Below are positions 10,682 through 60,760 of a DNA stretch of 64,000 nt, piece after piece; positions within the stretch are counted from its first letter, which is position 1, and each line of letters starts with the position of its first letter. The DNA lies in assembly GCA_949752735.1 (NCBI GenBank), contig OX457042.1, forward strand, positions 60,611,468 through 60,675,467, given 5' to 3'. Position numbers and translations under genes: made by a program. This DNA is from Lumbricus terrestris. Taxonomy: Eukaryota; Annelida; Clitellata; Crassiclitellata; Lumbricidae. The notes under the pieces were generated by a model. That model worked only from the letters and a program-made list of their open reading frames with translations. It searched no databases and was not told the DNA's origin.

Positions 10682-10723
10682 GATTATTTTCCCTCTGAAA
10701 GAATCGTACTGTTGATATTTTAG

Positions 10724-36405: not shown

Positions 36406-36410
36406 GCGAA

Positions 36411-36485: not shown

Positions 36486-36529
36486 CTTCTATTTCAATTA
36501 AATAACTGTTTTCAATGGAGGGTAACATG

Positions 36530-39841: not shown

Positions 39842-39916
39842 ATGAAGTCTTCTTCAGGAAAAATCAAGCTGACCGTTTACAACCGTGAAGGCGACTGTCT
39901 TCATTTAGCAAGAGAG
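39842..39916 (+). CDS. Gene 3 exon 1, N-terminus
   Basis: ATG opens 25 codons (MKSSSGKIKLTVYNREGDC then LHLARE) and ends at a donor, GAGAG|GTAAAC, in phase 0. The next module exon (43839) also begins in phase 0. KIKLTVYNREGDCLHLARE looks like a short beta-beta start. No signal peptide or membrane segment is seen, so the protein should be intracellular. The exon call rests on frame, donor and position, not on homology. Confidence 0.5.
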
Positions 39917-40519
39917 GTAAACCTTATATCACTCACATACAAAAATTGAGAGGTAAGCTTAGACCTCATCGATCATCAATCACGCTACCTATAAAAACAG
40001 ACAGGCGTACTTTTTTCGCTTACTTACAAAACCATCGAAGTTGCAAAAGGTCCATAAAGTTCTGTTGGGGGAGCAGAGCGAACCATACGCACGAATATTT
40101 CCAATCTGGAAATTAATGATCTGACTAATGAATAAAAAATCGTCTTATCGTTCGTGGACAGAATTTGCTCTAATTATGTAAAACTAAGGTTAACGTCTGG
40201 TAAGTTGAAGTTTCAATGTTAAGAGGTTATAACGATTTGTGACTTAGGTCCTAAAAATATTGAAACGAGATGTATTGAGACCTGTGAACAATTGGAAGTC
40301 GTATTAAAATTATACTTCCGGTTTGCGTGTGAATTCGCAATAGATGTTCAGTTTCGTGATAGTCTCATGATCCAGACGCAAGAACTCCATTCCCACTTGT
40401 GGGAGTAGCCTACAACACAATAGTGCAATGATTAGCCAAATGGCATATTCAGGGACTATTTTGTAAAACGCTTAGTAAAAGAATAACCATCAGATATGCA
40501 GAACTACTTCACACAAATT

Positions 40520-41470
40520 TCTGTATTCTTCTTCTTCTTCTTCTTCCTCTTCCTCTTTCTCTTTCTCTTCCTCTTCCTCCTCCTCCTCCTCCTTCTTCAT
40601 CTTCTTCTTCTTCTTCTTCTTCTTCTTCTTCTTGCTATATTTTTTTATTTTAGAAGATATTTATTCTTATTCCTCCTCTTCTTTCTCTACTTCTTTTTCT
40701 TCTTCTTCTTCATCCTCTTCTTCTTCATCCTCTTTTTCTTCATTTTCTTTTTATTCTTCTTCTCTCTCCTCCTCTTCTTCCTCTCCTCCTCCTCCTCTTA
40801 CTTCTCCTTCTTCTCCTTCTCATCCTCCTCTTCTTCTTCTTTTGATTCCACTTCTTCTTTTTCTTCTTTTTCGTCTTTCTGGTTTTCTTCTACTTATTTT
40901 TCTTCTTCTACTTCTTCTTCTCCCTCCTCCTCCTCCTACTCCTCCTCCACTTACTTCTCCCTCTTCTTCTCTTCCCTCTCCTCCTATTCTTCTTTTTCTT
41001 CCTTTTCTCCCACTTCTTCTTCTCCTTCTTCTTCTTTATCTTCCTCTTCTTCATCTTCCATTTCTTTGTCTTCCTTTTATTCTTCTTCGCCATCTTCTTC
41101 TTCTTCCTCCTCCTCTTCTTCATGTTCTTTTTGTTCTTCTTCTCCCTCCTCCTACTCCACTTCTTCTTCTTCGTTTACTTCTTTGTCTTCTTCTTCTCCC
41201 TCCTCCTCTTCTTCTTCTTTTTATTCTCTTTCTTCTTCTTCTTTTTCTTCGACTTCTTCGACTTCTTCTTTTTCTTTTTTCGTCTTTCTGGTTTTCTTCT
41301 ACTTATTTTTCTCCTTCTCCTTCTTCTCCCTCTACCTCTTCTTCATCTTCCATTTCTTCGTCTTCCTCTTCTATTTCTTCTTTTTCTTCCTCTTCTTCCT
41401 GATCTGCTTCTCCTCATCCTCCTCCTCCTCCTCGTCCTACTTTTCCTCCTCTTCCTCATACTTCTTTGAG
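40520..41470 (+). repeat. 950-bp pyrimidine tract (CTT/CCT)n
   Basis: Almost pure pyrimidine on the plus strand, built of CTT, CTC and CCT triplets with few purines. Long frames through it are low-complexity artefacts. It lies in intron 1 of gene 3. Confidence 0.95.
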
Positions 41471-41789
41471 GCGGTAGACTTGAACTGGATATTGCCGCTC
41501 CATCATGCATCGTCGGGTCTCCTCTGCAGATTTGGAGAGTGTGCCGCAGACGAGATCCTTATGTCGTGCCAGGTACTAAAATACACTTCGAACATGTTTC
41601 GACTCCATACCCGGTCGACAGTGAGGGCCCGAAGGCACAAGATGCCGATGAAGCCTCGACATTGCGTTCATGAAAAGGTGAAACCCATTTCGTACCAAGT
41701 ACCGAGTCCGTTCAGCGCGGTTGGCCGTAAAGGTAGCAATACTCGAGAGTGTCAATGATCTCGAATGCCCGCTGAACTTGAGGCGCTCA

Positions 41790-42565
41790 CACCCGAGTTT
41801 GAAAGGGGCCCCAAATTTAGCTGGTCATTATGCCTATTTGTGACTGTACAGAGCCGGTGTCACGAAATAGAGTATCCCCCGTATTAATTGTATCCCCCCA
41901 AATTTAAAAAAGTCAAAAAAAACCGCTTCCACTTGTATTTTTTGGGGCAAATTAATTTTCATCTGCTTTGTTTTGAACAATGACACTAACAGGTTTGTTT
42001 ATTCCCACTAGATAATTTGTTTTGCCCTGTTTTTAGAGCACTTAAAACATTTAAAACACTTAAGAACACTCAGAGACACTAAATAAATTGGAGTTGCCTT
42101 TATCTGAGCATTGCTTAGGACACTTAAAACAATTAGAGTCACTTTCAATTTTGATTACAGCATAAATTTTTTTATTATGCTCATTTTTCAAAAAAGGGGA
42201 TAGAATGGTTTATCCCCCCGGATAGTATAGACCGGTTAATTCCATCCGGGGGGATGAATTAGTCTATCCCCCCGGATAGCTTTCAGGGGGGATACTCCGT
42301 TTCGTGTCACCGGCCTGGTGCATGCCTCAACTAACCATATGGCACTGCCATAGCAGACCTAATGCAAATATCATACTGATTTTGGGCGTAAGTATAAAGC
42401 CATTAGAGTTTGAAAGGGGCCCCCAAATTTAGCTGGTCATTATGCCTATTTGTGACTGTACAGATCCGGTCTGGTGCATGCCTCAACTAACCATAAGGCA
42501 CTGTCATAGCAGACCTAATGTAAATATCATACTAATTTTGGGCGTAAGTATAAAGCCATTTAAAC
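41790..42565. repeat. Direct duplication, one copy interrupted
   Basis: The block GAGTTTGAAAGGGGCCCC to GGGCGTAAGTATAAAGCCAT occurs at 41797-42406 (interrupted) and at 42408-42560 (uninterrupted). A third, more diverged piece begins near 42720. Confidence 0.8.
41854..42313. mobile_element. MITE with CCGGTG ends, 460 bp
   Basis: The ends read CCGGTGTCACGAAATAGAGT inward from the left and CCGGTGACACGAAACGGAGT inward from the right. The paralogous empty site at about 42467 (CAGATCCGGTCTGGTGC) shows where it inserted. Inside is a second inverted set of TATCCCCCCGGATAG palindromes near 42210-42280. Confidence 0.8.
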
Positions 42566-42929
42566 TAACTCAGGCAATTTCGGTCACTTTCTCAAACAAC
42601 GTTTAATTGTAACTTATTCTAATTGTTAATTGTATGAGGCCTCAAAATAAAACCTGCGTGAGGCCCAAACATTAAAGCCTGTGTAGGGTCCCAGATGTCC
42701 TTGGTATGTGTCTGATCTCAAGTTTGCAAGAGGCCTCAAATGTAGCTGGTAATTATACCTTTCATAACTGTTCAATCCTGAAACCACGCACCGAATTAGT
42801 TTTAACGCAAAGCATACAAAACAATATTACTCAAACCAATAGAGCATTGTCCTTCAACCAAAGAGGAGACTTGGGGTGTGGACAGGGGCACGGCCCCACA
42901 ATTTGTGGTTGGGACGGAATCATTGTATC

Positions 42930-43275
42930 CCTAAAATTTTAGAAATATGTCATAAGTATCATCCACTGCCCATCAATAATGATCAATTTTGTCAAGATGA
43001 CAGCCTATAAATTCTACCATTAGGCTACAGTTGGCAAATCGGACAAATTTAAACAATGGAGTGGGGACACTCTGAAGTCCTAAACCACGACTAACAGCAT
43101 TGAAAAATGAGCAATTTTTGCAATGATGCATGAAAGCTTAAAATTCTACCATTATAGCATGGAAATTCAAAAAAATTAACAATTGGGAGGGGACATTTAT
43201 TGAAGTCTTATGCCATGTCTTTCAGCACTTATATTATGAGAAATTTTGCTGCGATGACAGCTCAAGGTATGGGGG
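42930..43275 (-). repeat. About 130-bp satellite units, reverse orientation
   Basis: Two to three diverged units in reverse complement of the array at 45205-46060 (shared elements: GACTTCAATAAATGTCCCC, TTTCTCATAAT, AGCTGTCATC). Confidence 0.65.
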
Positions 43276-43838
43276 CCTCAAGTTTTTGTTTGGCGGGGGA
43301 CCTCAGGTGCCCTAACGCCGGCACTGACCCGAGGTCAGCTCGACCCGGCATTTCTCAATTCATTTTCAATATCTGGTTCAGCTAATATAAGTTGTTTAGC
43401 TGCTGGCAAACGCTTACGCAGAAATATCGGTTTGCCTAATATTCGCCTAATTTTATTCTATGGTGATTACCTCCGGTTATCAAAAGGCATAAGCATGGAA
43501 TATATCCCACATTCCATATCCAGAGAGGCATAGTTTATTTCTCTTCCACAATAAATTATGGACACAATATCTAGTCGATAAACAGAGGGGTCATCTACAC
43601 TTCTGGTGCCTCGGCTATTTCTGGCATTATTTTCACATGTTGTGGGATAATTATCATCACACTTTTTTACCTCAAAATTGTGTGTAAATGAACTCCTAAC
43701 AGCTGCCTAAATTGTCGTAATTTTATTCCATGCGAATCCAGTTTGTTATACGGAAACCTAAAGGGGCGATAACCGCCCCATATCTATAGTAGCCCGATGA
43801 TTGAACAAAACCATTGCTTGTTATTCTTATTATTTTAG
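43276..43838 (+). other. Gene 3 intron 1, 3' part
   Basis: No gene is seen. It ends in a good acceptor (TTATTCTTATTATTTTAG, AG at 43837-43838). Confidence 0.5.
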
Positions 43839-44025
43839 CTGAATGAGCTTCCATTCGAGGTGCTAGATGCCATCTTAATTAACTCGTTTCTGCACTGGAT
43901 ACTGAAATCTTCACCTGACCAGACGGATGGAAATGTCATCAAAACTTTGGCATCAGTTGACTTCTGTTGGTCTCAACGAGTGACAAGTCGCAGATTTAAG
44001 AAGAGAATTTGGAGACAGATTAAAG
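43839..44025 (+). CDS. Gene 3 exon 2, F-box-like module
   Basis: The 187-base exon reads LNELPFEVLDAILINSFLHW, then ILKSSPDQTDGNVIKTLASV, DFCWSQRVTSRRFKKRIWRQ, IK. LPFEVLDAIL and ASVxxxWSQxVTSRRFKKRIW match the F-box frame (L-P-x-E-x-L ... S-x-x-W ... W), with a longer loop between helices. F-box proteins bring targets to an SCF ubiquitin ligase through SKP1. The role is inferred from the motif alone. It starts phase 0 and ends phase 1 at AAAG|GTGAAT. Gene 2 carries the homologous exon at 23524 with a GC donor at the same place. Confidence 0.7.
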
Positions 44026-44339
44026 GTGAATTTGGTTTTTATTACCTGTGGTTGAGTCATGCTTTGAATCGTTAAAATTATAATAATATGGCAAGAAGAT
44101 GATTGTTATTAGGCCCTAATATCATTTTTCTTATAGAACTGTGGCTACACTAATTCTGACTTTCAGTCATGTGTATAACTGTATAATGTGTATATTCTGT
44201 ATAATGTGTTTGCTTGTCATGGTTGTTTGGATCCCGGAGCGGAACGCAATGTCAGTCCTGTCAGAAAGTTAAGAGCCAAAAATTCACGAACTGGTTTCGT
44301 CCATAATTATTATTATTACTGTCGTCGTCGCATTCTTCT

Positions 44340-44716
<377 letters not shown>

Positions 44717-44758
44717 ACCTCATTCATAAAATTTAATCTAGCTGCTTGATCTTTTCAG

Positions 44759-45046
44759 ATTTCTTTGGCAAATCGAAGAAAAGATCTTCAATTATTAGAA
44801 ACAATCGAAATTATCTCTTAGAAAATGTTCAGCCAAATGATGAATTCTTTGAATCGTTATTATCTCTCAACTGCATAACAGAGGAACAAAGTCACTTCAT
44901 CCAACGGCAACGTTCAAATCGGAATAAGAACACAGCACTTCTGAAGATTGTGAGATCCTTCAATGAGACGAAGTTTTCAAATTTTGTGACGTGTCTTCGA
45001 CAAACAAACCAGAGGATAGTGGCAAGGGTCATGGAAAACGGAGGAG
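44759..45046 (+). CDS. Gene 3 exon 3, CARD-like module
   Basis: The 288-base exon (acceptor CTTTTCAG, donor GGAG|GTTTGA, phase 1 at both ends) reads NYLLENVQPNDEFFESLLSL, NCITEEQSHFIQRQRSNRNK, NTALLKIVRSFNETKFSNFV, TCLRQTNQRIVARVMENGGG. The layout is that of a six-helix CARD: helix 1 L-L-E-N-V, helix 2 F-F-E-S-L-L-S-L-x-x-I-T-E-E, a basic helix 3 start, helix 4 L-L-x-I-V, helix 5 F-S-N-F-V-T-C-L, helix 6. CARDs pair with other CARDs in apoptotic and inflammatory complexes. No matching exon is found in genes 1 or 2 within the window. It is the strongest sign that this family works in signalling. Confidence 0.75.
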
Positions 45047-45204
45047 GTTTGAAGTACAAACTTAATCTAAAGAACATAATTATTGCAATTTTTTATGACC
45101 TGAATTACTCTATTGGATGCGCGCTTAAACCCTTACCAGGCATCGGTTCTTTTATATTAAGCTTATACAATAATACACGCATCCATTTTAACCAATTTGC
45201 CCAT

Positions 45205-46060
45205 CATTTCAGTGCCGAGACTCATGGCTTAAGACTTCAAAAGTGTTCCCTCCCACTATTTGCATTTTTTTGATTTTCCACACTCTGATGGCAACATTTT
45301 AGGTAGTAATTTTACTGAAATTTGTCCATCATTTCTGAAAGTCGTGGTTAAGATTTCAAAAGTGTCCCGTCCCATTGTTTATTTTTTAAATTTCCACACT
45401 GTAATAGTAACATTCTAAGCTGTCACATCAAAAACATTTCTCATAATTGCACTGCTGAAAAATATGGTTTAAGACTTCAATAAATGTCCCACCTCCATGC
45501 ATTTGCTTAAATTTTTGTAATTTCTACACTCTAATGGCGGCATTTTAAACTGTCAGCTTTGTAATTTTTTTCAATGCTGATAGTCACAGCTAAAGCCTTC
45601 AGAGCGTCGCATCCAGACTGCTCACAATTTTTTCTTCCATTGATTATACAATTGTTCATTTGCACAATAATGGAATAATTTTAAGCTGTCATCTATTTTT
45701 TTACCGTAATTGCTTTGCTCAAAAACATTATTTGAGACATCAGAAATTTTTTCCTCTCGCTTATGTAATATTTTAAATTTCCACACTTTAATGGCGGCAT
45801 ATTTCGCTGTCAAATTAATCAGATTGCTCTTTTTCAATGCTGATGGTCATGGTTTAAGACTTCAGAATGTCACCTCTAAAATGAGATTTGCACACTGTGG
45901 CCATAGCTTTTCAAGCTGTCATTTTAAAAGAAATTACTCATGATTTCAATGCTCAGAGACGTGGTTTAAAACTTCAATAAAAATTCCCTATTATTTAATT
46001 TTTCTTTTACATCCTGTAATGGTAGGATTTAATTATAATAATAGCTATCATCTTAGCAGA
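45205..46060 (+). repeat. Tandem satellite, about 120-135 bp period
   Basis: About six to seven diverged units: GGCTTAAGACTTCAAAAGTG, CCCTCCCA..TTTGCAT, TTTCCACACTNTAATGGCNN, CATTTTAAGCTGTCA, TTTCTCATNATTNCANTGCT. The reverse-oriented copy lies at 42930-43275, so the two arrays bracket the F-box and CARD exons. Confidence 0.75.
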
Positions 46061-46451: not shown

Positions 46452-46811
46452 TCGTAATAAAAGTTGAAATGTGGAATAGTGAAGAAACTTCCATGGAAAC
46501 ACAGTATTTTCATCAACGTATCGAAGATCTTGTTGACAAAACAAAGCCATGGTCACATGATACTAATATACTGATCGGTCAATTGAGGGAGATTGGCATA
46601 GAAATCCTCAACTCCCAACTGGATAGACAGACTGTCGTCGTTTGGATCTGGTGTTATTCGCAAGCGGCCCTTCAATATATGCAGATATTGTACGAATCGA
46701 ATCAGTTGGAAGATGTCTTATTTGCTCTGACAAATACTGGACCATCTACGTCTCAAATGGTTCAGTCGAAAGTGATCAACATTGACAGCACTGAATTCAA
46801 GAAAACAACTG
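46452..46811 (+). CDS. Gene 3 exon 4, TRADD-N-like module
   Basis: The 360-base exon starts after TTTGCTTGCAG and ends at ACTG|GCAAGT. It reads YFHQRIEDLVDKTKPW, then ILNSQLDRQTVVVWIWCYSQ, AALQYMQILYESNQLEDVLF, and INIDSTEFKKTTG. It is homologous to 501-839 with a six-residue insertion (TNTGPSTSQMVQ region). The beta-strand VVVWIWC and following amphipathic helix suggest a compact alpha/beta domain like those next to death-fold domains in invertebrate adaptors. The use of GC as donor is conserved in all three copies and required by phase. The next coding exon is 13 kb away because the Polinton sits in the intron. Confidence 0.75.
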
Positions 46812-48440: not shown

Positions 48441-48605
48441 CACGATCAGGCCTACCTGAAAATTCTGACTGATCGTCCCCCTTGAGCACAAATCCAGCAG
48501 TGCTTTAGTCTCTTAATCGTTTTCCTATCGCACCTCCACCCTTCCATCGAAATTATCATAGATGTAAAAAACGATGAAAATAAAATAAAAAAACGGAAAA
48601 ACGTC

Positions 48606-49133
48606 AGTAGTTGATTAATAGCCGGTGTAAGGACAGCGACCAATAGGAAGCGGCCTTTTTGGTCACGTGACCTCATTAATATTCATGTGGATATGAGGGC
48701 CGGTATTAGGACAGCAACCAATGGCAAGCCACCAAATTTTCACTTGACCTCATTATGTTAATTATGCCCGCCCCTAATTAATATTCATGTTGTGACGTCA
48801 TATTCTAGAACTTTCTGGACCATTCCAGAAGGTCTATTGTTCCTTTGTCCGTCTCTTTGTCCGTCTGCGTGTTTGTCTGGCCGTCTGTGTGCATACCTAG
48901 GTGATTAAGAGGTCGTTAATGATATGCCCTAGGGTAATGGCTTTACTATGCATGATAAGAATCTTTATGACGCCCCAGCGCAGACGAATTTCAAAAACTA
49001 AACGGCGCAGGATAGGACAAAATAAAAACTTTAAGATTTTCCATCTAGAAAAAAAAAACCCCAAGATTTTCACTTTTATCTTTTAATGCAGCGAATATTT
49101 TAATTAAATTAAATGCGTACAAGGAGGAAGTTT
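48606..49133. repeat. Polinton left terminal inverted repeat
   Basis: The outer 220 bases match the right end closely (GTGTAAGGACAGCGACCAAT, AGGAAGCGGCCTTTTTGGTC). The inner part keeps AAGATTTTCCAYCTAGAAAA and ATGGCTTTA...GATAAGAATCT blocks. It is shorter than the right arm. Confidence 0.85.
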
Positions 49134-49241
49134 GACAGATGGCGCCACTTATTGTAATTACTTTATTAAAAAGACGATACTTATATCTTTAAGAATTATT
49201 CGTTATCCATTCTTTGCGAGTGATACACGTTTTGCGCAAAT

Positions 49242-49550
49242 ATGTGTCCATCGAATGTTCAATGTGAAATGGATGTGTTTGGCAACTACAAGTGCGAATG
49301 TGCCATTTGTGGAATCGATGAGCGCACGGAGGATGAGAAAGCTAAGAAATATCGCCTCATGAGACTGAAAGCGGAGAATGAAAAACTCAAAAAAGCAGTT
49401 ACTTGCGTGGTATGTAAAAATAAGCAAGTGGAAGCTCTGCTACTTCCATGTACGCATGTAAATATGTGTGATCCATGTGCAGATGAAGCTACAGAATGTC
49501 CTCAATGCAAAGAACGCATATTGGGCACAGTCAGAATTTACCTTGTATAA
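49242..49550 (+). CDS. Polinton RING-finger protein
   Basis: The 102-residue frame ends in a compact RING of the IAP/MUL1 type: CVVCKNKQVEALLLPCTHVN, MCDPCADEATECPQCKERI. This is the C-x2-C ... C-x-H-x3-C-x2-C ... C-x2-C zinc-ligand series at about residues 55-92. A charged helix (EDEKAKKYRLMRLKAENEKL) precedes it, and a short Cys pair (CECAIC) lies near residue 20. Such RINGs act as E3 ubiquitin ligases. It is the first gene of the unit, 37 bases before the ATPase. A RING is not part of the Polinton core set and may have been captured from a host. The frame begins at an alternative codon; the first ATG is at 49270 (MDVFGNYK). Confidence 0.75.
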   Translation: MCPSNVQCEMDVFGNYKCECAICGIDERTEDEKAKKYRLMRLKAENEKLKKAVTCVVCKNKQVEALLLPCTHVNMCDPCADEATECPQCKERILGTVRIYLV

Positions 49551-49587
49551 AAGTTTGCTACAGCATTTCAAGGACTCACTTTTCGTT

Positions 49588-50202
49588 ATGGATCCAACTT
49601 GGCAACATCCGTTTTCGGCTATAGTGAGCGGACCTTCTGGATGTGGAAAAACACAATTCACGCTACGATTTATAGATCATTTACATTATATGGTCAAACC
49701 GCAGATAGAAAAAATTATCTGGTGTTACGGAATATACCAAGAAATTTTCGACAAATATTCGCAGATTCAATTTCACGAAGGATTACCCGACTTGAATATT
49801 TTCGATGGTAAGCAGAAAACGCTTCTGATATTGGACGATCTTATGAGCGAGACTGATGACCGCGGTACCAAATTATTTACAAAGATCAGCCACCACAGGA
49901 ACGTTTCCATACTGTACCTGACGCAGAATCTATTCTACAGCAGCAAACATACGAGAACCATCAGTTTGAATGCGCATTACTTTGTTCTTTTCAAAAATGT
50001 GAGAGATTCGACTCAGATAGCAAACCTGGCAAGACAGATGTTCCCCGGCAAGTCGAATTTCATGATAGAGGCGTTCGGAGATGCGACAATGGCACCTTTC
50101 GGATATCTGTTGGTTGATCTCAAACCGGAGACGGATGAACGCTGCAGATTAAGAACGAACATTTTTCCTGGTGAGACGCATTTTGTCTACGTAAGAAAGT
50201 GA
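49588..50202 (+). CDS. Polinton DNA-packaging ATPase (A32/FtsK-HerA type)
   Basis: The frame is open from 49468, but the family start is the ATG at 49588 (MDPTWQHPFSAIVSGPSG), giving 204 residues. Walker A is GPSGCGKT (residues 15-22), and Walker B is LLILDDLM (about 81-88). A sensor-like YLTQN follows at about 112. Size and motifs match the packaging ATPase of Polintons and related viruses, which pumps the genome into capsids. The stop overlaps the frame of the next gene. Confidence 0.9.
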   Translation: MDPTWQHPFSAIVSGPSGCGKTQFTLRFIDHLHYMVKPQIEKIIWCYGIYQEIFDKYSQIQFHEGLPDLNIFDGKQKTLLILDDLMSETDDRGTKLFTKISHHRNVSILYLTQNLFYSSKHTRTISLNAHYFVLFKNVRDSTQIANLARQMFPGKSNFMIEAFGDATMAPFGYLLVDLKPETDERCRLRTNIFPGETHFVYVRK

Positions 50203-50243
50203 ATATAAGGTCGTGTAATCGCTCGAACGTTCATTCGTTGAAA

Positions 50244-50573
50244 ATGACGGCTCCACTGGAGGAGAAATTTGAGAAACTGAGATTGCTTAAAGAGTCGTCG
50301 CCCAATGTGAGGAAACGTATTTTGAAAGATTGCAACACCTCACTACTTTATTGTCTCTGTGAGTGTGCGCTTAATGTTTTAAAAGGGATTGTTCCTTTGG
50401 AAAAAGCTCAGAAGGAGAGACTTGGTCGTTTCAAACACAAGTTAAGGAAATTGGCTTCCAAGAAAACTCGTGTAAAGATTAAGAAACGAATAGTACAGAC
50501 TGGTGGTTTCATAGGTGCATTACTTACCCCTGTGCTTTCCTTTCTGGGTACCTTGCTAAGTAATAAACTGTAG
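50244..50573 (+). CDS. Small conserved Polinton protein, basic with hydrophobic tail
   Basis: From ATG 50244 (MTAPLEEKFEKLRLLKESSP) this is 109 residues. A basic middle (KERLGRFKHKLRKLASKKTR, VKIKKR) leads to GGFIGALLTPVLSFLGTLLS, a glycine-start hydrophobic tail like a membrane-active or capsid-internal peptide. I recognise the layout from small proteins found next to capsid genes of animal Polintons, but have no biochemical role for it. An in-frame start upstream at 50199 overlaps the ATPase end by four bases. Confidence 0.6.
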   Translation: MTAPLEEKFEKLRLLKESSPNVRKRILKDCNTSLLYCLCECALNVLKGIVPLEKAQKERLGRFKHKLRKLASKKTRVKIKKRIVQTGGFIGALLTPVLSFLGTLLSNKL

Positions 50574-50574
50574 C

Positions 50575-51228
50575 ATGGAACACACGAAGAAGATGGTCTT
50601 GGTTGAACCCATGCAGATTGAAAAATGGAAGGAAATCATGTTGGACAAGACTTTGTCCAAACTGGATACGCAGATGTACGACATTCTGCATCGCGATATT
50701 GCTGATGACGATAAAGCCAAACTCTATTCCAACAGTCTGAGTCGCTATCTGAACATTGATAAACCTACTGTACTTACCAAATTCGAAAAGAAAGAAGATG
50801 AAGTGACAGCTGCTGAGAAGGTGCAGCCGGTCAAAACCAATAGTATAGAAGCTCAAGTCTTGGAAACCGTGCCAAAGAAATGGAAAACGCAGGCTGCTAG
50901 ACTTTTGACTCATATGAAGAGCAACCCGGACGTTTCGTGGTCTACTAAAGGCGAACTTGTGCTGAAGAACGCGACGGTTCCGAAGACGCATGTGGTGGAC
51001 TTGGTAAACGACCTGTTGAGAAAACGTACAACAGCTTCACCGCCTACCGGATGGATGCAACTGGCCGACGCCTTGAAAGATTCCAACATTCCTCGCGAGT
51101 TGATCGGCAATCAAGATCGTTGGAAATATATTAACGGTCCGTTCGATGAAAGTCAGTCATTTACACCGAAAAGTAGACACGGAAAACATCAGCAACATCA
51201 TCTGGACGCTAGTTGGTTACCGTACTGA
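50575..51228 (+). CDS. Conserved Polinton protein of unknown role
   Basis: 217 residues, ATG one base after the previous stop. An acidic-basic N-terminal half (MILHRDIADDDKAKLYSNSL region) is followed by a conserved C-terminal module: VPKKWKTQAARLLTHMKSNP, VSWSTKGELVLKNATVPKTH, VVDLVNDLLRK, GWMQLADALKDSNIPRELIG. The helix-turn pattern of the C-terminal half suggests a small winged or helical nucleic-acid binding fold. Polintons often have such a protein just before the integrase. No catalytic motif is seen. Its stop and the integrase start overlap as TGATG. Confidence 0.6.
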   Translation: MEHTKKMVLVEPMQIEKWKEIMLDKTLSKLDTQMYDILHRDIADDDKAKLYSNSLSRYLNIDKPTVLTKFEKKEDEVTAAEKVQPVKTNSIEAQVLETVPKKWKTQAARLLTHMKSNPDVSWSTKGELVLKNATVPKTHVVDLVNDLLRKRTTASPPTGWMQLADALKDSNIPRELIGNQDRWKYINGPFDESQSFTPKSRHGKHQQHHLDASWLPY

Positions 51229-52262
51229 TGGATTCTTACTTCGATCCCAAACAGCCGGCTAGCTTCGGCGGCGTATCTTCATTTCAAAGACATATTGACG
51301 ATAAATTTAAAACTAAGGATGTTAAAAATTGGCTTTCGAAGCAGGACGCTTACACGCTGCATAAACCTGTCAGATTGAACTTTAGACGTAGACAGACTTT
51401 TACAGTAGGAATTGACGATCTATGGCAAGCTGACTTGGCCGATCTTTCTGCATTGTCGAAACATAATGATAAAAATAAATATATTTTAACGTGTATAGAC
51501 GTCTTTTCTAAATATGCTTGGGCAGTTCCGCTCAAGTCAAAGTCGGGAGCAGATTTGACTGCAGCCTTTTCGTCTATTTTGGTAGATAGACAGCCCGCTC
51601 ATTTACAGACCGACAAGGGAACAGAGTTCCTTAATAGAAGCTTCCAATCCATGCTGCGCAACAATTCCATTCGCTTTTACACATCTGAAAATAGCGACAT
51701 AAAGGCCTCTGTAGTAGAAAGATTCAATCGCACGCTTAAGACGAAAATGTGGAAGTACTTTACGTATAAGAATACGTATCGATATGTTGATGTTTTGCAA
51801 GATCTTATGCATTCGTACAACAATACATATCATAGAAGTATAGACATGATACCTAGTCAAGTGACAAAGGAAGACGAAAATAGTATTAGAAGTCGTTTGT
51901 ACGGCCAAAAGAAAAGTCCAACAAAGTGGAAATATGCAGTAGGTGATAAAGTGAGAATTGCAAAGGCTAGAATCGTATTCAAGAAGGGCTATCTTCCTTC
52001 TTGGTCCGAGGAGATTTTTAAGATCATACCTCGTATACCTTCCGATCCAGTAACTTACGAATTAGCCGATTTAAAAGACGAGACGCTAAAGGCTAAATTC
52101 TACGAAGTCGAACTGCAAAGAATTTTGAAAGATGATGACGTGTACGGTATCGAAAAGGTCTTAAAAACGCGTAAGCGGCGTGGAAAGACCGAATATTATG
52201 TCAAGTGGAAAGGTTACGACGTCAAATTTAACTCTTGGACTCAGGATATATTCGATGTCTAG
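51228..52262 (+). CDS. Polinton integrase with C-terminal chromodomain
   Basis: 344 residues from ATG 51228. A retroviral-type RNase H fold core carries D-D-E: LWQADLADLSAL (D near 69), LQTDKGTEF (D near 127) and ASVVERFNRTLK (E near 162). The HSYNNTYHRSIDMIPSQV block after it is also typical. At the end, YGIEKVLKTRKRRGKTEYYV, KWKGYDVKFNSWTQD is a chromodomain (aromatic cage Y-W-W), which tethers integrases to methylated histone H3. It inserts element DNA with 6-bp target duplications, as seen at both ends here. The N-terminal zinc-finger usual in retroviral integrases is not obvious. Confidence 0.92.
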   Translation: MDSYFDPKQPASFGGVSSFQRHIDDKFKTKDVKNWLSKQDAYTLHKPVRLNFRRRQTFTVGIDDLWQADLADLSALSKHNDKNKYILTCIDVFSKYAWAVPLKSKSGADLTAAFSSILVDRQPAHLQTDKGTEFLNRSFQSMLRNNSIRFYTSENSDIKASVVERFNRTLKTKMWKYFTYKNTYRYVDVLQDLMHSYNNTYHRSIDMIPSQVTKEDENSIRSRLYGQKKSPTKWKYAVGDKVRIAKARIVFKKGYLPSWSEEIFKIIPRIPSDPVTYELADLKDETLKAKFYEVELQRILKDDDVYGIEKVLKTRKRRGKTEYYVKWKGYDVKFNSWTQDIFDV

Positions 52263-52296
52263 CACTAACAATGCGCATTCTGTAATACATGCGAGT

Positions 52297-53190
52297 ATGG
52301 CTCACTTTTATCTAGCGTTACCAAGCAACAGCTCCATGCAGTATTATCCAAGCAATACTGCGGCACACTTTACAACAAAATTGGAAAACGACATTTCATT
52401 ATCGGGCGATTGGGAAGTTGGCTTGATTGAAATACATTATCCGCACACGTGGAACAATATAACATCCGACGATTGTGAATTTATTTATTGGCAAGAATCG
52501 AAAAAGTATTCTGACGGTTTGCATTGGCCAGGCGATCAAAAGACAATACAATTACCTACTGGGTATTACGAAAATATGCATGATATTGTATATGCTGTAA
52601 ATACGAATATACAGGAGTTTGCGGTCAAACATAAACTTGATAAATATTCACATTTTAAATATGACACAATAACGAAAACACTCAAAGGTGAAATAAATCT
52701 AGGAGCTGGAGTTAGATTCTCCACAGCATTATGCTTTATTTTGGGCATAGACGAAAGACAGAATCCTATTTATAACCTCAATTTTGGTAAATATGACGCT
52801 GAAGAGAATGAAGAATATTATAAAGAGCATTACGAAGAGTTTAATAAAGTATGGGATGAGGTACCCGATGTGGAATGGGAATCTGAGTATATTGGAGATA
52901 TAAATCCAGCATTCTCAAGCATACACGTTTATTGCAACATTCTGTCACATGTACCTGTTGGCGATACGAAAGCTCCATTACTTCGAATAGTTCACATTGA
53001 AGGTAAAAATGGCGACAATGTGCATATCATGTACGAGAATGCAGTCTACGTACCCCTTCAGCAGAAAAGTTTCGATTCGATAGAAATAGATATGAGGGGC
53101 GACTCTGGGAATCCAATACCATTCGAGTATGGGAAGTCGTTCGTGTTACTTCATTTCAGACAGTGCAAGAACGCGCATCTCATTCAATAA
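52297..53190 (+). CDS. Polinton penton-like minor capsid protein, copy 1
   Basis: From ATG 52297 (MAHFYLALPSNSSMQYYPSN) the product has 297 residues. Conserved blocks: NTAAHFTTKLENDISLSGDW, EVGLIEIHYPHTW, TIQLPTGYYENMHDIVYAVN, HVPVGDTKAPLLRIVHIEG, VPLQQKSFDSIEIDMRGDSG, IPFEYGKSFVLLHFR. These mark the single jelly-roll penton-type protein of Polintons. An acidic insert (YDAEENEEYYKEHYEEFNKV) is absent from copy 2. The frame overlaps the integrase end; 53190 is followed three bases later by copy 2. Confidence 0.82.
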   Translation: MAHFYLALPSNSSMQYYPSNTAAHFTTKLENDISLSGDWEVGLIEIHYPHTWNNITSDDCEFIYWQESKKYSDGLHWPGDQKTIQLPTGYYENMHDIVYAVNTNIQEFAVKHKLDKYSHFKYDTITKTLKGEINLGAGVRFSTALCFILGIDERQNPIYNLNFGKYDAEENEEYYKEHYEEFNKVWDEVPDVEWESEYIGDINPAFSSIHVYCNILSHVPVGDTKAPLLRIVHIEGKNGDNVHIMYENAVYVPLQQKSFDSIEIDMRGDSGNPIPFEYGKSFVLLHFRQCKNAHLIQ

Positions 53191-53193
53191 AAT

Positions 53194-54018
53194 ATGGCTC
53201 ACTTTTATATTACGCTCCCAAGCAATAGTTCCATGCTGTTTTATCCAAACAATACCGTAACACATTTTACCACGAGATTGGAAAACCCTATATCCCTAAC
53301 CGGTGACTGGGAAGTCGGGCTAGTTGAATTCCAGTACCCTAATAGTTGGAGCAACTTAGAAAGAAACGAAGGTAGAATCTCGTATATGCACGTCAAGTTT
53401 TCTGAAACGGGTGACATACTACCAGGATCGCTGCATAGAACTACACGGCTGCCAACTGGATACTATGAAACACCCCAACAACTTATCGATTCCATAAACA
53501 AATTTATAAGTCTTGTTGTGGATGAAATGGAATTGACTTCATTTCCAAAGTTCAAATACGATCCTATTTCGAAGCGACTCAAGGGAGATATAAACAAAGG
53601 TGCAAATATTCAGTTTTCACCAACCATATGTTCAATGCTGGGTGTTAATGCACGTCAAAATCCAATTCTCAATTACGATGAGGACGATGACTACATTGTC
53701 GATTTCGTGGGTGATAATGCTTGCGATGTAAATCGTGGGTTTTGTTCTCTGTACGTATATTGCAATGTGTTGGAACAAGTACCTGTGGGAGATACGAAGG
53801 CGCCATTGCTCAGAATTGTAAACGTGACTGGGAAAAGTGGCGATAGCGTGCGTACGACTTACGAAAAACCCGTTTACATTCCGTTGCAACAGAAGACTTT
53901 CGACTCCATCGAAGTGGATATAAGGGGCGACACTGGAAGTCCTATCCCATTCGAATACGGGAAGGCAATTGTGACACTACACTTTAGACATCGTAAGATA
54001 CCTTATCTTTTGCAATGA
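53194..54018 (+). CDS. Polinton penton-like minor capsid protein, copy 2
   Basis: 274 residues, starts MAHFYITLPSNSSMLFYPNN and aligns along its whole length with copy 1, sharing the TGYY, GDTKAPLLRIV, VPLQQK-like IPLQQK and PIPFEYGK blocks. It lacks the acidic insert of copy 1. The stop overlaps the next start as ATGA. Tandem duplication could allow two versions at the capsid vertices; that is inference. Confidence 0.82.
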   Translation: MAHFYITLPSNSSMLFYPNNTVTHFTTRLENPISLTGDWEVGLVEFQYPNSWSNLERNEGRISYMHVKFSETGDILPGSLHRTTRLPTGYYETPQQLIDSINKFISLVVDEMELTSFPKFKYDPISKRLKGDINKGANIQFSPTICSMLGVNARQNPILNYDEDDDYIVDFVGDNACDVNRGFCSLYVYCNVLEQVPVGDTKAPLLRIVNVTGKSGDSVRTTYEKPVYIPLQQKTFDSIEVDIRGDTGSPIPFEYGKAIVTLHFRHRKIPYLLQ

Positions 54019-54419
54019 AAAAACAATTTTGCTGCGATGCAAGTCGTTTGGCATATGAGGACTACTATGTACAACAGAGTGGCAACGGCATGCCAGTTTT
54101 TCAAGGTGCGCGCATGCAACGTGGGCATGGCGTGGGCAGCTTTCTTGGCGGTCTGTTTAGAAGTGCCTGGCCGCTTATTCAGACTGGCGCTAAGGCAATT
54201 GGCAAACAGGTTTTGAGAACCGGTCTGCAGATTGCCAACGACGTCGCGGACGGCGGTCAGTTGATAGACTCGGCCAAACGTCGCGTTCCAGAAGGTATAA
54301 AAGCGTTTACATCTCCCAAAGATGACAATGTGCAAAGCGGCGGCGGCAGGAAGAGACGTAAAAGATCGTTGAAAAGAATTAACAAGAGAACCAAGGAAGA
54401 TATTTTCGGCAAAGTTTGA
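54015..54419 (+). CDS. Small basic Polinton virion-type protein
   Basis: 134 residues. A conserved core MPVFQGARMQRGHGVGSFLG, GLFRSAWPLIQTGAKAIGKQ, VLRTGLQIANDV is followed by a basic tail (GGGRKRRKRSLKRINKRTK). The core is common in animal Polintons between the minor and major capsid genes. Glycine-rich amphipathic helix plus basic tail recalls capsid core or cement proteins of adenovirus-like viruses, which is a structural analogy only. Confidence 0.6.
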   Translation: MKKQFCCDASRLAYEDYYVQQSGNGMPVFQGARMQRGHGVGSFLGGLFRSAWPLIQTGAKAIGKQVLRTGLQIANDVADGGQLIDSAKRRVPEGIKAFTSPKDDNVQSGGGRKRRKRSLKRINKRTKEDIFGKV

Positions 54420-54423
54420 AAAA

Positions 54424-55735
54424 ATGGCGTTCGTTCATCCGCAATCTTGCGAATGTACAAAGAGCGAATTGGATCTGTTTAGCGCACCTCCCACGCAGAC
54501 CAGTATCGAAACTGGTTCATACGTAGAGTATAATCCAATAGCCACCATTTCGCAAGGTACACCTATCGAATTTAGCATAACAGGAGCGGGCCAAGATTAT
54601 CTGGACTTGTCGAATACTCAGTTGTATGTCAGAGCCGCTATAATAAGAGCGAATAACGATCCGACTGATGCCGGCGATCATGTTGGTCCTATCAACCTAT
54701 TCCTACACAGCCTGTTTTCGGAAGTCGACATCACTTTAAATGACACGCTCGTTACTTCGTCGAACAACACGTATGCGTACCGTAGTTATATGGAGACCAT
54801 CCTTAGCTACGGAGATGCCGCCAAAGCTTCCCAACTTACCTCTGCACTCTTTTACAAGGATACAGCCAACCACTTGGAAGATGCCGACCCTCACGACAAT
54901 GCTATAGCGAATGTTGGTTTTAAGAAACGCAGTGCATTGACCGACGAAGGGCGCGTCGTTGATATGATAGGAGGAATTCACAGCGATCTCTTCTTCCAAG
55001 AACGTTTTCTCCCCAACGATATTAATATAAAAATCCGGCTCGTAAGAAATAAGGATCCATTCTGCTTGATGTCAGCGACAGCGGGTGCCGCATATAAAGT
55101 AAAAATCTTGGAATGCAAGTTGTACGTTAGAAAGGTAAAGCTAAGTCCGTCGGTGTTTCTAGCACATGCTAAAGCCCTTGAGGTTGGCAATTTAAAGTTT
55201 CCCATTCGAAGAGCCATTTGCAAGACTTTCACGGTTCCGGCAGGAAACTTGGATGCGTCGCAGGAGAGTCTTTTCTCCGGTCAGATTCCTACCCGCATCG
55301 TTATCGGTTGCGTTGACAACGACGCGTTTAACGGAGTCTATACGAAGAATCCATTCAACTTCAAACATATGAATCTGACCCAACTAAAAGTGTACTTGGA
55401 CGGCCAACAGCAAACGATCAAACCTTTGGAAACAAATTTCGCAAACAATCAGTTTGTGAATGCTTACGCTTCGCTGTTTACTGGTACCGGAAAGTGGATG
55501 CGCGACGAAGGAAATCAGATAACGAGAGAGGACTTTGCCGGTGGTTACGCTCTTTACGCATTCGATTTAACGCCAGACCTGGCAGAGGGTGGACACTTCA
55601 ACCTCATTAAGCCGGGAAATATTCGTGTTGATATGAAGTTCGGCCAGGCTTTGGCTAGAACCATAAACGTCATAGCATTCGCAGAATTTGAAAATATTCT
55701 GGAAATCGACCGCTCCAGAAACGTGATTTTCGACT
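54424..55735 (+). CDS. Polinton major capsid protein, 3' end broken by insertion
   Basis: Starts MAFVHPQSCECTKSELDLFS. Blocks DYLDLSNTQLYVRAAIIRAN, INLFLHSLFSEVDITLNDTL, TYAYRSYMETILSYG, GGIHSDLFFQERFLPNDINI, KPGNIRVDMKFGQALARTIN and VIAFAEFENILEIDRSRNV identify the double jelly-roll major capsid protein of Polintons. The native frame is intact to 55735. Beyond it the open frame (to 55905) is read through a 292-bp LINE fragment, giving about 56 foreign residues with a hydrophobic end. The copy of the target duplication on the far side is followed by an in-frame stop within a few codons, probably the original end, so the loss is only the last few residues plus the foreign tail. Confidence 0.88.
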
Positions 55736-56027
55736 CTTCTTTTCCGTGCTCTGCCCTTAGGCAGGTTCGAATGTTTGACGTCTCCATTCTTCTCTGTTCT
55801 GCGCTTTCATTTTCAGCTTCTGATATCCATCCTTCATCATCCAGTCTAACAATCTTTGTCTTGGTCTGCCTCTCGTTCTTTTTCCATCCATTTTCCCCTC
55901 TATGATTGTTCGCAGCATCGAATCTCCTCTGAGTGTGTGCCCGATCCATCTTCTTTGTCTTTCTCTAATTGTGTGTATCATCGCTCTCTTTTCTCCGACT
56001 CTTCTCAATACCTCCTCATTTTCGACT
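55736..56027 (-). mobile_element. RTE-like LINE fragment inserted in capsid gene
   Basis: The minus strand reads [60 protein letters not shown], the C-terminal end of RTE-type LINE polyproteins. It is flanked by the perfect 10-bp duplication ATTTTCGACT (55726-55735 and 56028-56037), so the boundaries are exact. Length 292 bp. Confidence 0.93.
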
Positions 56028-56039
56028 ATACCAACTGAA

Positions 56040-56486
56040 ATGGACGGTGACACGATATATTCGATACTACGTGCAGATGCAAAGTGTGGTCCCATGTTTC
56101 TGGGCGTGTTTCCATGCGACCGCTTACCTTCTACGATAAACAGAAATCGTCCCTCCATTCTCGTGTGTAATACAGATACGTACGGCAATCCAGGGAAACA
56201 TTGGATCGTTATTTACATAGAGAATTCTACCTATGGGGAATACTTTGACTCGCTGGATGCGCCACCCGAAGCTCCGTTCAGGACATTTTTACATAGACAT
56301 TGTGCACGGTGGATCTTTACTGATCGGCAATTGCAAAGCTTAGTTAGCAAATTTTGTGGACATTACTGTATTTTGTATTCGTTGCATAGAGCTAGAGGTA
56401 GAAATATTAATGCTGTAGCGAACATGTTAACTTTTGATACTGGATTGAACGATTATTTGGTGTTTAATTTCGTTTCCAAAGTATAA
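56040..56486 (+). CDS. Polinton adenain-like cysteine protease
   Basis: 148 residues from ATG 56040. Catalytic His in [13 protein letters not shown] (about residue 60), an acidic residue in [11 protein letters not shown] (about 75), Gln-containing stretch RQLQS and nucleophile Cys in [10 protein letters not shown] (about 112-115) follow the order of adenovirus protease and Ulp1-type enzymes (family C5/C48). It matures capsid proteins in related viruses. The frame upstream of 56040 is LINE-derived and not part of the gene. AATAAA follows at 56488, the likely end of the element's transcript. Confidence 0.88.
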
Positions 56487-56487
56487 G

Positions 56488-56493
56488 AATAAA
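56488..56493 (+). terminator. Polyadenylation signal after the protease gene
   Basis: AATAAA two bases after the stop region, in an AT-rich context, at the end of the gene run. Confidence 0.55.
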
Positions 56494-56599
56494 GTTACTT
56501 GAACTTTAAAAGTGTTGTAGTTATTTGTATGCATGAATCTGAATGCTAGGGATTGAAAACATATCAAAGTTCTGCTGCGATCATTTAATAATGCACACA

Positions 56600-58638
56600 C
56601 AACAGATGGCGCCAACTCTGTAACAAACTTCCTCCTTGTACGCATTAAAAGATAAAATTGAACAAATCTTGCGTTTTTTTTCTTTCTGGGTGGAAAATCA
56701 TGGGTGAAAAATCTTGGGTTTTTCTAGGGTTTTTTTTCTGGGTGGAAAATCTGGATTTTTTTAAGGTGGAAAATCTTGGGTTTTCTGGGGGTTTTTTCTA
56801 GGTGGAAAACCTGACTTTTTCTAGGTGGAAAATCTGACTTTTTTTCTAGCTGTTTAATTTGCTGGGTCTAGCAGATTTATTTTTCTCCAACATGGGGCGC
56901 GGTACAGATTCTTATCGCAACAAATAAAGCCATTCATATGCCTTTCTTCATCACCGTAACGCGTCGGTTGAGTGGAGATGTTGTATAATACAATGGAAGC
57001 GGCCACTTATTGCCTGCGGCCATATAGCCGACGATCTAGTCACGGTGTAAAGGACTCCTGTGTGTATAAAATTCATATAGCTCAAATTTTAAAGCGCATG
57101 GCATACAATGCGCGTAAGTGTTGTATTTACATCTCATGCAACACTGTTTCTGCTTCTCAGAGGGATTCCGCGACTGAAAAATTAGCGTTTCCATCATTTT
57201 TTATGCGAATGATGGCTATTTCGCGCATCAAAGAATGAAGGACTTAAATGTTAAGAACTGAAAATAGCAAGTAATGCGCTCTCCACTGAATGGAGGAAGG
57301 GAGGGAGGGAGGGAGTATGATGTGTGGAATGATAGTCTCTGCCTCTCTCTATGACACTGCCTCTGTCTCTGTCTCTACCACTGACTCTGCCTCTGACTCT
57401 GCCTCTGTCTATGTCTCTGTCTCTACCTCTGTCTATGTCTCTGCATCTGTCTCTACCACTGACTCTGCCTCTGTCTATACCTCTGGCTTTGTCTCTCTAT
57501 GACTCTGCATCTGACTCCACTAAATAAACCAGCCTTTCAAATGACTTCTTTGTCATCATGTCGTTAGAGCGGAAACGCAAGCGTTCAAATAATATGCCTG
57601 CGGCAAATAGACAGACACCTACTGCTGGCCTTTTGTTGAGCGGATCGGTCTCGTCACGGTGCATGGCTTTGGGTGCTTTTGATCAGTGCTCTGTGTATGC
57701 ATCAAAATTGAGCGAGCGCTGACAGAGTCCTATGTAATAATGCTCCTTTGAGTTCCAATTCTGCCCTAAGAGTCCCAGTTTGCTTGTGAACTGTGCTTTA
57801 CGCAAAAATAAATGACTATATGGCTTTGTCAATGCCAGGCAAAATTGTGTATAAACGAGGAGGGTGGCCCTTCTTCTTCTTCTTACGACTCAGTGATGAA
57901 TATGCTTAAATTTTAAGAAACGCCGCTGCTGGCTGCACTGCGCTATTGCCTATCCCAAGTGAGAATAAAGGATTATGTAGCTCATATATTAGTTACGTAT
58001 AGAATGAAGATTGCCTTATATGCGTGAAGGAACTGGAAATGGTAAGTTTGGCAATTCTTAGATCTATTTTAAATTAATGCGATGCAAGAACGGTTGGATT
58101 GATTGAGTTGAGGGCGGGCACGAATAATGTTAGCTTTCTCACATGCCTAATGCGTGTATAATGACAGTCCCGCATGCAAAGGTCAATAGGCAACGTACAA
58201 TAGAAATTCTACACAGACCTTGATGTTTCTAGAAGAGTGACGTCACATGCACATGCGCAAAGGGTAATAGCCAGAATACTATAGAGCTTCTCCATGGATC
58301 TCGAATTTTCTAGACTGATGACGTCACATGCCCATGGGTAAAGGGCAATAGGAAAATTTGGTGGCTTGCCATTGGTTGCTGTCCTCATACCGGCCGTCAC
58401 ATCCACATGAATATTAATTAGGTTATGTGACAAATAGGCCGCATGACGTCACAACATGAATATTAATTAGGCGCGTGGCTAATTAACATAATGAGGACAT
58501 GTAACAATTCGGCGGCTTGCCATTGGTTGCTGTCCTAATACCGGCCCTCATATCCACATGAATATTAATGAGGTCACGTGACCAAAAAGGCCGCTTCCTA
58601 TTGGTCGCTGTCCTTACACCGGCTATTAATCAACTACT
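56600..58638. repeat. Polinton right terminal inverted repeat region
   Basis: Complement of the left arm at its inner end (56600-56930) and outer end (about 58430-58638). The part between (57000-58200) has no left counterpart. Two successive units near 58330-58480 and 58490-58638 repeat the CCATTGGTTGCTGTCCTNAT and CACATGAATATTAAT blocks. No gene seen. Confidence 0.8.
57340..57515. repeat. (CTCTGY)n-type microsatellite
   Basis: Imperfect six-base repeat, units CTCTGC, CTCTGT, CTCTAC and CTATGT, inside the right arm of the Polinton. Confidence 0.85.
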
Positions 58639-58644
58639 AACGTC

Positions 58645-59801
58645 ATTTATCTATTTTGCATGATCTGCCCAACAAATTTGAATTTTAATATCAGTGTCTG
58701 TTTATCCAACGTGGATCGCTCTCCAAAATTAATTTCTATCCGATTGAGTCAACTGTTGAACTCAAACGTCTTTTTACAAACTTGAATGTTGGCGTGTGAT
58801 GCAGTGTTTAATCGACTGGATGTAGCCTACTTGTCGAGCTCATTAGTGCTAATACTCACGGTGATAATCGAGAGTGAGCAGTTGATGCAAAGTCTGCACT
58901 TGTCAGGACTCATGTTTGATATCAAATTTGCCTTCTGCTTAGTAGTTTTACTGCGTTGTTGCGTGAGATGAGAAAGGAATCCGATATTTTTCAGAGATTT
59001 TCCATTGACATTTCAGCGCCATGTCGAACGTATAAACCCGACAATGACATGCAGCGGTCATGTTATAAACACTATATTATTATAATAGCCTACAGGTCTC
59101 CAGGTCTCAGTCTCTCAGAGGCCTAGTTGACTATTTCTATAATGTCGTAGGACTCGTGGGTCTTACTACCACATATGTTCATGATTTTCTGACTATATTA
59201 TAAGCACTTTAAAATCTCAAAAGATTAATGAAGTAACATAGGTATTAATATACTACAATAATTGGGCTATAAGCGTTCAGCGATAGGTTTTTGTTTTGTA
59301 CATTAAAGTCACGCCGTTTATTTTGAGTTTTTATTTCTTGTTGCTTCAAACTCAAACATCAATAATTCTTCGACCAACCATAAATAACTCCATGATCCTG
59401 ACGCCGAAATTCTAGAGCTGGCGCCGCCACTGCCTCCACACTTCCATTTATATGCAACGTCAGACAGGTCATCAGAATAGTAAAATACAACATGGCACAG
59501 TGCTCCGAGATCGATCGAGTAAAATAGTTCGAGTCGATGGTAACTCGGACAAGTCGAGTGGACTGACAAGTCGAGTCGTTAGATCGTTAATTTGGATATC
59601 GAGTCGATCATTGTTTCGTAGACTCGACTGAACTTATAAAATAATGTATCTGAAAATATGAGAAAACATATTCGATGAAAGCAAGTAAATTAAAATCCAG
59701 AATATTTATTACAGTAATGTACAAAATAACAAACAACTAACGTAGTTATTAGTTATTGAGTCATTATGGTCTTATGATCTCTAGTTTTATCTCTTATTTA
59801 G
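58645..59801 (+). other. Gene 3 last intron after the Polinton
   Basis: No gene is seen. A patch near 59510-59630 repeats GTCGAGT. It ends in the acceptor CTCTTATTTAG (AG at 59800-59801). Confidence 0.5.
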
Positions 59802-60760
59802 TCGTGTGTCCGATTTCCATCATCGCTACTGACAGATTGGACGTGGGATATGCATTCGGTTTGACTAAGCTGCGAAATAAAATCTACGTTCTTGGTGAAA
59901 CGACTTCTGCCGTTCATGTAATTCGTGTCTTTGAGGATCAAAATCCATTTCGTCTTCAGGAGACAATCGAAGTTAAGGGATCGATTGAGAAAGAAAACGG
60001 ATGCTATGGCTCTGGTGACATTGTAGCAAGTGAAGGTAAAAATTGCCTCTACGTCAGTGGCGAAAAACACAATTATCAAGCATATCCTACCGATACAATC
60101 TATCACGATTCACGGACATTTTACGACTCGGAGTTTAACTACATCTGGAGGATAACAATAGAAACAGGCGAACTAAACAAAGCCATTAAATGGCTGGCCA
60201 TCGATTATGAGCCATATACTCTGTCAGTGACTTATGATAGTCATTTGTTGGTTGTCACTCGTTCATCGTCCATTTTGATGATCTACGGATCAAACGCGGA
60301 ACTAATTCGTTCCATCCAGTTACCAAGAGACATTGGGTTCCCTCGTCATGCAGTGGAAACATCCACCGGAAATTTCATTATCACTCACACAATGGTAGAA
60401 GAGGAGGATGAAGTAGAAACTGGATCCTTTAGGAGAATGCAGGAAACTAAACAGGTCATAAGCGAAGTTACCAGCGATGGACAGAAGGTCATTCGTCGTT
60501 TCATGAGCTCCAATAAAACTCAGCAACTGCGATATCCGGCATATCTGTCCCTCGATGCAGACGATCGAGTGTATGTAGCGGATAATGATAGAGTGATTCT
60601 CTTGGACTCCGATCTTAAATGGAATCGAATTCTTTTGTCAACTAAAAAAGAAGAGAGTCTGATAGAATGGATAAACAGACTTTTTTACGACAATGAAAAA
60701 AAGCAGCTTATCATCGCAGGATTTGATTCTCACGGAGTTAATGTCTATACTTTACGTTGA
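59802..60760 (+). CDS. Gene 3 exon 5, NHL-type beta-propeller
   Basis: Begins phase 1 (TC|GTG|TGT|CCG), identical in register to genes 1 and 2, and ends at TGA. The blades read FGLTKLRNKIYVLGE, GDIVASEGKNCLYVSGE, YTLSVTYDSHLLVVTRSSSI, PRHAVETSTGNFIITHTMVE, YLSLDADDRVYVADNDRVIL and KQLIIAGFDSHGVNVYTLR. A longer first insert (HNYQAYPTDTIYHDSRTF) and a shorter middle loop set it apart from gene 2. With exons 1-4 it completes about 622 codons in frame. The propeller likely recognises the ligand or partner that the N-terminal modules act upon; that is inference. No AATAAA is evident close downstream. Confidence 0.87.

Follow-up and report, generated by a model that had tools for sequence, protein, structure and literature searches.

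A CARD and NHL-propeller gene of the earthworm Lumbricus terrestris and its expanded family of candidate innate sensors

The genome of the earthworm Lumbricus terrestris carries many copies of a gene that joins small N-terminal modules to a C-terminal beta-propeller. We describe one copy, found in a window of 64,000 nucleotides (contig OX457042.1; C8:60611468-60675467 in our numbering; "the window" denotes this whole stretch), and discuss its structure, its paralogs, its relatives, and the selection acting on its parts. We lean, with some reserve, towards the view that the gene belongs, as an intact copy, to a family of intracellular innate sensors that expanded within its lineage.

The five-exon gene and its modules

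The gene comprises five exons, four of which each encode one module (Table 1). The spliced model of 1869 bp encodes 622 amino acids with no internal stop and cumulative phases of 0, 1, 1, and 1, and thereby reproduces exactly the in-frame join proposed in the initial annotation. The donors are, in exon order, GTAAAC, GTGAAT, GTTTGA, and GCAAGT, and all 4 acceptors are AG. The fourth intron is of the GC-AG type; GC donors are rare but known. Exon 1 is matched by a single young paralog (L063, 95% over 22 amino acids, with a 6-nucleotide gap ahead of the donor). Another, diverged exon-1-like stretch lies downstream of the first in that locus (L063:2703-2902), and in the window a related stretch, recognised by eye, runs into a pyrimidine-rich repeat at about 40455-40530.

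Table 1. Features of the window, with positions counted from its first letter
Feature	Positions	Strand	Basis or remark
Exon 1, start codon and 25 amino acids	39842..39916	+	gene model; match in one young paralog
Exon 2, F-box-like module (F-box call unconfirmed)	43839..44025	+	
Exon 3, CARD	44759..45046	+	Pfam match
Exon 4, TRADD-N-like module (call unconfirmed)	46452..46811	+	GC-AG donor after the exon
Exon 5, NHL-type beta-propeller and stop codon	59802..60760	+	family-level NHL matches
Polinton-like element in intron 4	48601..58643	.	inverted repeats, element genes, empty site in paralog
Upstream paralog A, exon 4	503..835	+	
Paralog A, exon 5	10723..11682	+	
Decayed exon 5 copy with stops	13348..14006	+	
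Decayed paralog B, exon 2	23524..23706	+	
Paralog B, exon 4, one stop	26683..26955	+	
Paralog B, exon 5	28111..29376	+	long acidic low-complexity insertion

The CARD and NHL calls of the initial annotation both stand, the second at the level of the family. Exon 3 matches the CARD model PF00619 at 33.4 bits (E 4.6e-8), above the gathering cut-off of 23.9. The NHL model PF01436 matches 22 of 23 family members at E<=0.1 (best 1.6e-8), although the window copy's exon 5 taken alone falls under the cut-off (E 0.061). In the PDB, the exon-5 profile finds the NHL chains of PknD, Thin, TRIM71, TRIM2, and Brat, and also the designed Pizza propellers. By our reading, the propeller would have six blades.

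Exon 2 had been called an F-box, a call that did not hold up. By eye the exon is F-box-like: it starts with LPxEL...L, and its distal half carries an invariant Cys and Trp (RFKxxIW). An approximate consensus matches F-box-like_2 over residues 1-61 of 63 (E 0.027, 14.9 bits vs a cut-off of 21.6); P0124 gives E 0.056, under the cut-off, and so do 3 of the 24 rows in the alignment of exon-2 relatives (best E 0.049), which are weaker than the consensus. In the same 24-row scan, surely unrelated families score equally well or better: Hormone_2 in 5 rows (best 0.028) and Arv1 (0.0039). Pfam F-box models match none of 19 exon-2 copies, the window copy included, at E<=1, and none of the 54 genome matches of PF12937 lies at one of the 150 best-scoring (of 324) exon-2 places when the two are compared by eye. 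Aligned as a profile (hhalign) with 12 genuine F-boxes from this genome, exon 2 matches over 12 columns only (P 0.0095, probability 4.3 percent; unrelated control pair, P 0.84); this alignment supersedes a weak comparison with six F-box fragments whose sequences were approximate (P 0.015; control 0.81). The exon-2 profile finds nothing meaningful among PDB sequences.

These results bear on a different reading of the gene, as mainly a substrate-selecting ubiquitin-ligase receptor of FBXW-like build, in which F-box and propeller act together, the variable face selects proteins for degradation, and the CARD and exon 4 do no more than oligomerise the receptor. F-box/WD40 proteins such as FBXW7 and BTRC carry their F-box N-terminal to the propeller, and a possible F-box ahead of a propeller is the likeness here; the differences are that the earthworm F-box is unconfirmed, that the propeller is of the NHL and not the WD40 kind, and that a CARD and the exon-4 module lie between. 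The start motif, the invariant Cys and Trp, and the consensus match argue for this reading, as does the relative P0001 discussed below, but none of the members examined scored up to an F-box cut-off, unrelated families match the exon-2 rows equally well, and the alignment with the genome's own F-boxes is short. We regard it as unlikely. The link from death-fold signalling to ubiquitin-ligase recruitment that had been proposed for the protein thus survives in its death-fold half, where the CARD is sound, and is unproven in its ubiquitin half.

For exon 4, the earlier TRADD-N assignment likewise failed to find support. TRADD families are absent from the Pfam matches of 11 exon-4 members, and TRADD-like_N occurs in 2 of the 121 rows of exon-4 relatives (best E 0.11, among 25 of 91 matched families). 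PF13820 has 5 genome matches, none at the 150 best-scoring (of 334) exon-4 places; PF20694 has no match in this genome and likewise none in the control genomes, hence its absence is not readable. An hhalign comparison with 4 NCOA6-type TRADD-N stretches of the same genome is weak (P 0.035 over 14 columns; control pair, 0.39). TRADD-N is expected to have an RRM-like four-stranded alpha+beta fold, and Anoctamin_N, an alpha-beta plait family, matches 28 of the 121 relatives under the cut-off (best 0.0015); such plait matches are not specific, because the unrelated sigma-factor family Sigma70_r1_1 matches more rows (41 of 121, best 0.00095). A check for the tiny-residue-Ser motif that TRADD-N carries between strands 2 and 3 found, in 11 exon-4 copies, Asn54 nearly invariant and Ser55 invariant; among the 121 relatives, Ser55 lies outside the 90-percent columns. 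Nothing meaningful was found with the exon-4 profile among PDB sequences.

Searches of public assemblies returned 164 short proteins for the exon-4 profile at E<=0.01 (the best 120 listed) and 23 matching proteins for the exon-2 profile. Their length suggests that these short relatives are individual exons annotated as genes. One longer relative, P0001, is a hypothetical protein of 416 amino acids on a JGI contig, where an exon-2-like stretch precedes a related propeller in a single open frame. Its propeller aligns with exon 5 at hhalign E 6.8e-19, and its exon-2-like stretch at P 0.0074 (probability 5.3 percent). The resemblance to the earthworm gene lies in this arrangement; the difference is that P0001 has no Pfam match, and therefore no recognised CARD, and that we recognised no exon-4 module in it. 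Its layout suggests an older two-module protein, of exon-2-like stretch and propeller, to which the CARD and exon 4 would have been joined later.

Genome-wide copies and their conserved order

We searched the window's own genome (1.056 Gb, 331 contigs) with each exon and analysed the best-scoring matches: 150 of 324 for exon 2, 150 of 508 for exon 3, 150 of 334 for exon 4, and 125 of 1091 candidates for exon 5, where second pieces of exons already included were left out. The counts of order and locus below refer to these lists. The 575 matches cluster into at least 299 loci, with four modules in 23, three in 51, two in 101, and one in 124. Module loss is not readable from these counts, because missing modules may score below the matches listed. 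At least 245 loci lie on C8, 244 of them within 19.5 Mb (41.8-61.3 Mb), and 28 lie on C10. The tandem expansion suspected from the window alone is thus borne out across the genome.

Module order and strand are kept among the copies, as the proposed genome-wide check was to reveal. On the same strand and within 10 kb, exon 3 follows exon 2 in 67 of 150 cases and precedes it in 1, and exon 4 follows exon 3 in 80 of 150 and precedes it in none. Within 15 kb, exon 5 lies downstream of exon 4 in 57 of 150 cases and upstream in 7. The wider pairs agree: 72 downstream and 7 upstream for exons 3 and 5, and 74 and 3 for exons 2 and 4. No neighbouring exons on opposite strands were seen over the five exon pairs, for which randomly shifted lists gave mean downstream counts of 11.4-17.8 and maxima of 21-34. 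Where an exon-3 locus has every partner inside the set distances (28 loci), exon 4 precedes exon 5 in 27.

Splice sites are conserved as well. Among distinct copies with scorable ends, the window copies included, acceptors are AG in 20/20 (exon 2), 30/31 (exon 3), 12/12 (exon 4), and 29/30 (exon 5), and donors are GT or GC in 26/27 (exon 2), 32/32 (exon 3), and 22/22 (exon 4). The single non-AG acceptor of exon 3 looks like a one-base match offset. The exon-4 donor is GC in 19 of the 22 copies; that is, the GC-AG intron is conserved across the family. In 14 four-module genes, the amino-acid distance matrices of the exons correlate with r 0.80-0.89, a value reached by 0 of 2000 permutations; the exons have therefore been copied and have diverged as a unit.

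Could the exons nevertheless be parts of two or more adjacent genes, with no join in this copy across a 13-kb intron 4? The 10-kb element within that intron argues for such a split, but paralogs with a short intron 4, such as the 60.24-Mb copy, where it measures about 1.8 kb, share the order, phase, splice sites, and divergence, and we consider the split very improbable. As read from these copies, the exon join is not a chance arrangement, and the evidence supports exons 1-5 as one gene whose transcript would be spliced as modelled.

Two copies at C8:60.87 and 60.90 Mb (L004, L005, L012, L013) lie 29,773 bases apart and score equally in all four exons; they would represent either a very recent duplication or an assembly duplicate.

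The propeller face and a possible role

Selection was estimated as pairwise omega by the Nei–Gojobori method (NG86) in the same 14 four-module genes (91 pairs), with medians taken over pairs with a synonymous distance (dS) of 0.02-1.5. The median is 0.26 for exon 2 (49/91 pairs usable), 0.29 for exon 3 (91/91), 0.39 for exon 4 (78/91), and 0.58 for exon 5 (91/91). These estimates show purifying selection on the N-terminal modules and a less conserved propeller.

Variation in the propeller is concentrated. Entropy is above 2.5 bits in 34 columns across 36 exon-5 sequences, of which 34 are non-redundant. According to PMC3066209, the top surface of a propeller is made up of its DA and BC loops and the bottom of its AB and CD loops. 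With strands and loops assigned by eye from the NHL pattern, 33 of the 34 hypervariable columns would fall among the 88 columns of the DA/BC loops, 1 among the 42 of the AB/CD loops, and 0 among the 142 of the strands; the loop bias has a Fisher p of 4e-6, and a difference at least as large arises in 2 of 318 circular shifts. In six copies (the window copy, three more from C8, and two from C4), omega of the predicted top loops exceeds that of the rest in 15/15 pairs. The four young C8 copies (6 pairs) give 0.87-1.81 for the top loops and 0.21-0.39 for the rest, and the 9 pairs that involve a C4 copy give 0.44-0.94 for the top loops. This pattern is consistent with diversifying selection; relaxed constraint would fit too.

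Relaxed selection is part of another account, in which the genes form a developmental or RNA-binding NHL family, akin to Brat and the TRIM-NHL proteins, that grew by tandem duplication with no role in immunity. The profile matches to Brat and TRIM71 and the occurrence of dead copies are in keeping with it, and TRIM-NHL proteins (TRIM2, TRIM3, TRIM71, Brat, Thin) share the C-terminal NHL propeller. They differ from the earthworm protein, in whose full 622-amino-acid model a Pfam scan found no RING or B-box match and which has a CARD instead. This difference, the low omega of the CARD within the same gene, and the focus of variation in one kind of loop make the account quite improbable in our judgement.

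We return to the reading as an innate sensor. The protein is a possible immune sensor because it combines a death-signalling domain with a propeller on which the face likely to bind ligands differs among copies. The hypervariable top face would bind a ligand, different for each copy; exon 4, which lies between the sensor and signalling parts, would probably serve as a hinge or switch; and the CARD would nucleate homotypic assembly with other CARD proteins, perhaps caspase or kinase adaptors. In addition, the F-box-like module may bring an SCF (Skp1–Cullin–F-box) ubiquitin ligase to whatever target or complex is bound, a hypothetical ubiquitin link. A fuller version, which we offer only tentatively, has hundreds of germline-diversified intracellular receptors that unite propeller face, CARD, and SCF-recruiting F-box in one polypeptide. 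If true, a single molecule would combine death-fold assembly signalling with the marking of its bound target for degradation.

Several points weigh against the sensor reading. The F-box and TRADD-N calls fall short of profile cut-offs; the entropy profile had already been seen when the loops were assigned; and pairwise NG86 omega cannot tell positive selection apart from relaxed constraint or gene conversion. The variation observed is between paralogs. In one young pair, the window and 60.24-Mb copies, exon-4 omega is 1.05. Part of the family is dead, because one of the 14 four-module genes carries a stop in exon 4 and paralog B in the window is decayed.

Comparable expansions are known. Marine invertebrates have lineage-specific expansions of proteins that combine a Death-superfamily domain, TRADD-N, and variable C-terminal parts, propellers included, and an immune role has been proposed for them, according to the main text of PMC8195603. 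The earthworm family resembles these in being large and lineage-specific, in placing the Death-superfamily domain ahead of the TRADD-N or TRADD-N-like module, and in a C-terminal part that can be a beta-propeller. It differs in its parts: those expansions, as described there, are mostly of DED and WD40 propellers, whereas the earthworm family has CARD and NHL and an unconfirmed TRADD-N assignment; "F-box" and "NHL" have 0 occurrences in that main text. Subject to exon 4 being a TRADD-N domain, the family would fit the death-fold/TRADD-N/propeller theme with a CARD and NHL. The initial annotation had known of no described family with this module order. The exact combination was indeed not found in the literature searched, outside which most subscription papers lie; the general theme is already in print, as PMC8195603 attests. 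The family would extend that theme, known mainly from DED and WD40 parts, by a CARD/NHL version, and it makes a concrete candidate for an animal repertoire of innate receptors that is both large and diversified, its variation lying on one predicted surface and its signalling domain being identified.

Intron 4 and neighbouring sequences in the window

The Polinton-like element in intron 4 is bounded by terminal inverted repeats of 201 nucleotides (48601-48801 and 58443-58643, 95% complementary). It codes for an A32-like ATPase and an integrase with a chromodomain, and shows weak matches to a double-jelly-roll capsid protein and an adenovirus-type protease, both under the cut-offs. The paralog at C8:60.49 Mb aligns through an empty site, where two alignments overlap by 7 bp, as a short target-site duplication would give; from this empty site, the element is an insertion into intron 4 of the window copy. 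An open reading frame with a RING finger (49224-49547; zf-C3HC4_3, 4.4e-11) lies within the element's bounds.

Other copies of the family surround the gene. Ahead of exon 4 of paralog A, the closest CARD and exon 2 upstream sit a short way outside the left edge of the window, at C8:60609631 and C8:60608080. No CARD exon was found in paralog B, whose propeller lies in an open reading frame at 28087-29391 with a long, Glu-rich low-complexity insertion.

Retroelements are present on the minus strand. A long reading frame at 1406-4846 codes for an endonuclease and a reverse transcriptase and contains a CGDISVNPGP stretch, which we take to resemble a 2A peptide, and a further reverse transcriptase frame lies at 34873-36597. 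Elsewhere in the genome, COX1 on the mitochondrial contig (C331, L093) fits NCBI table 5 at sites taken as conserved and speaks against the echinoderm code, so that an echinoderm source was set aside: ATA is Met, AGA is Ser, TGA is Trp, and AAA is Lys.

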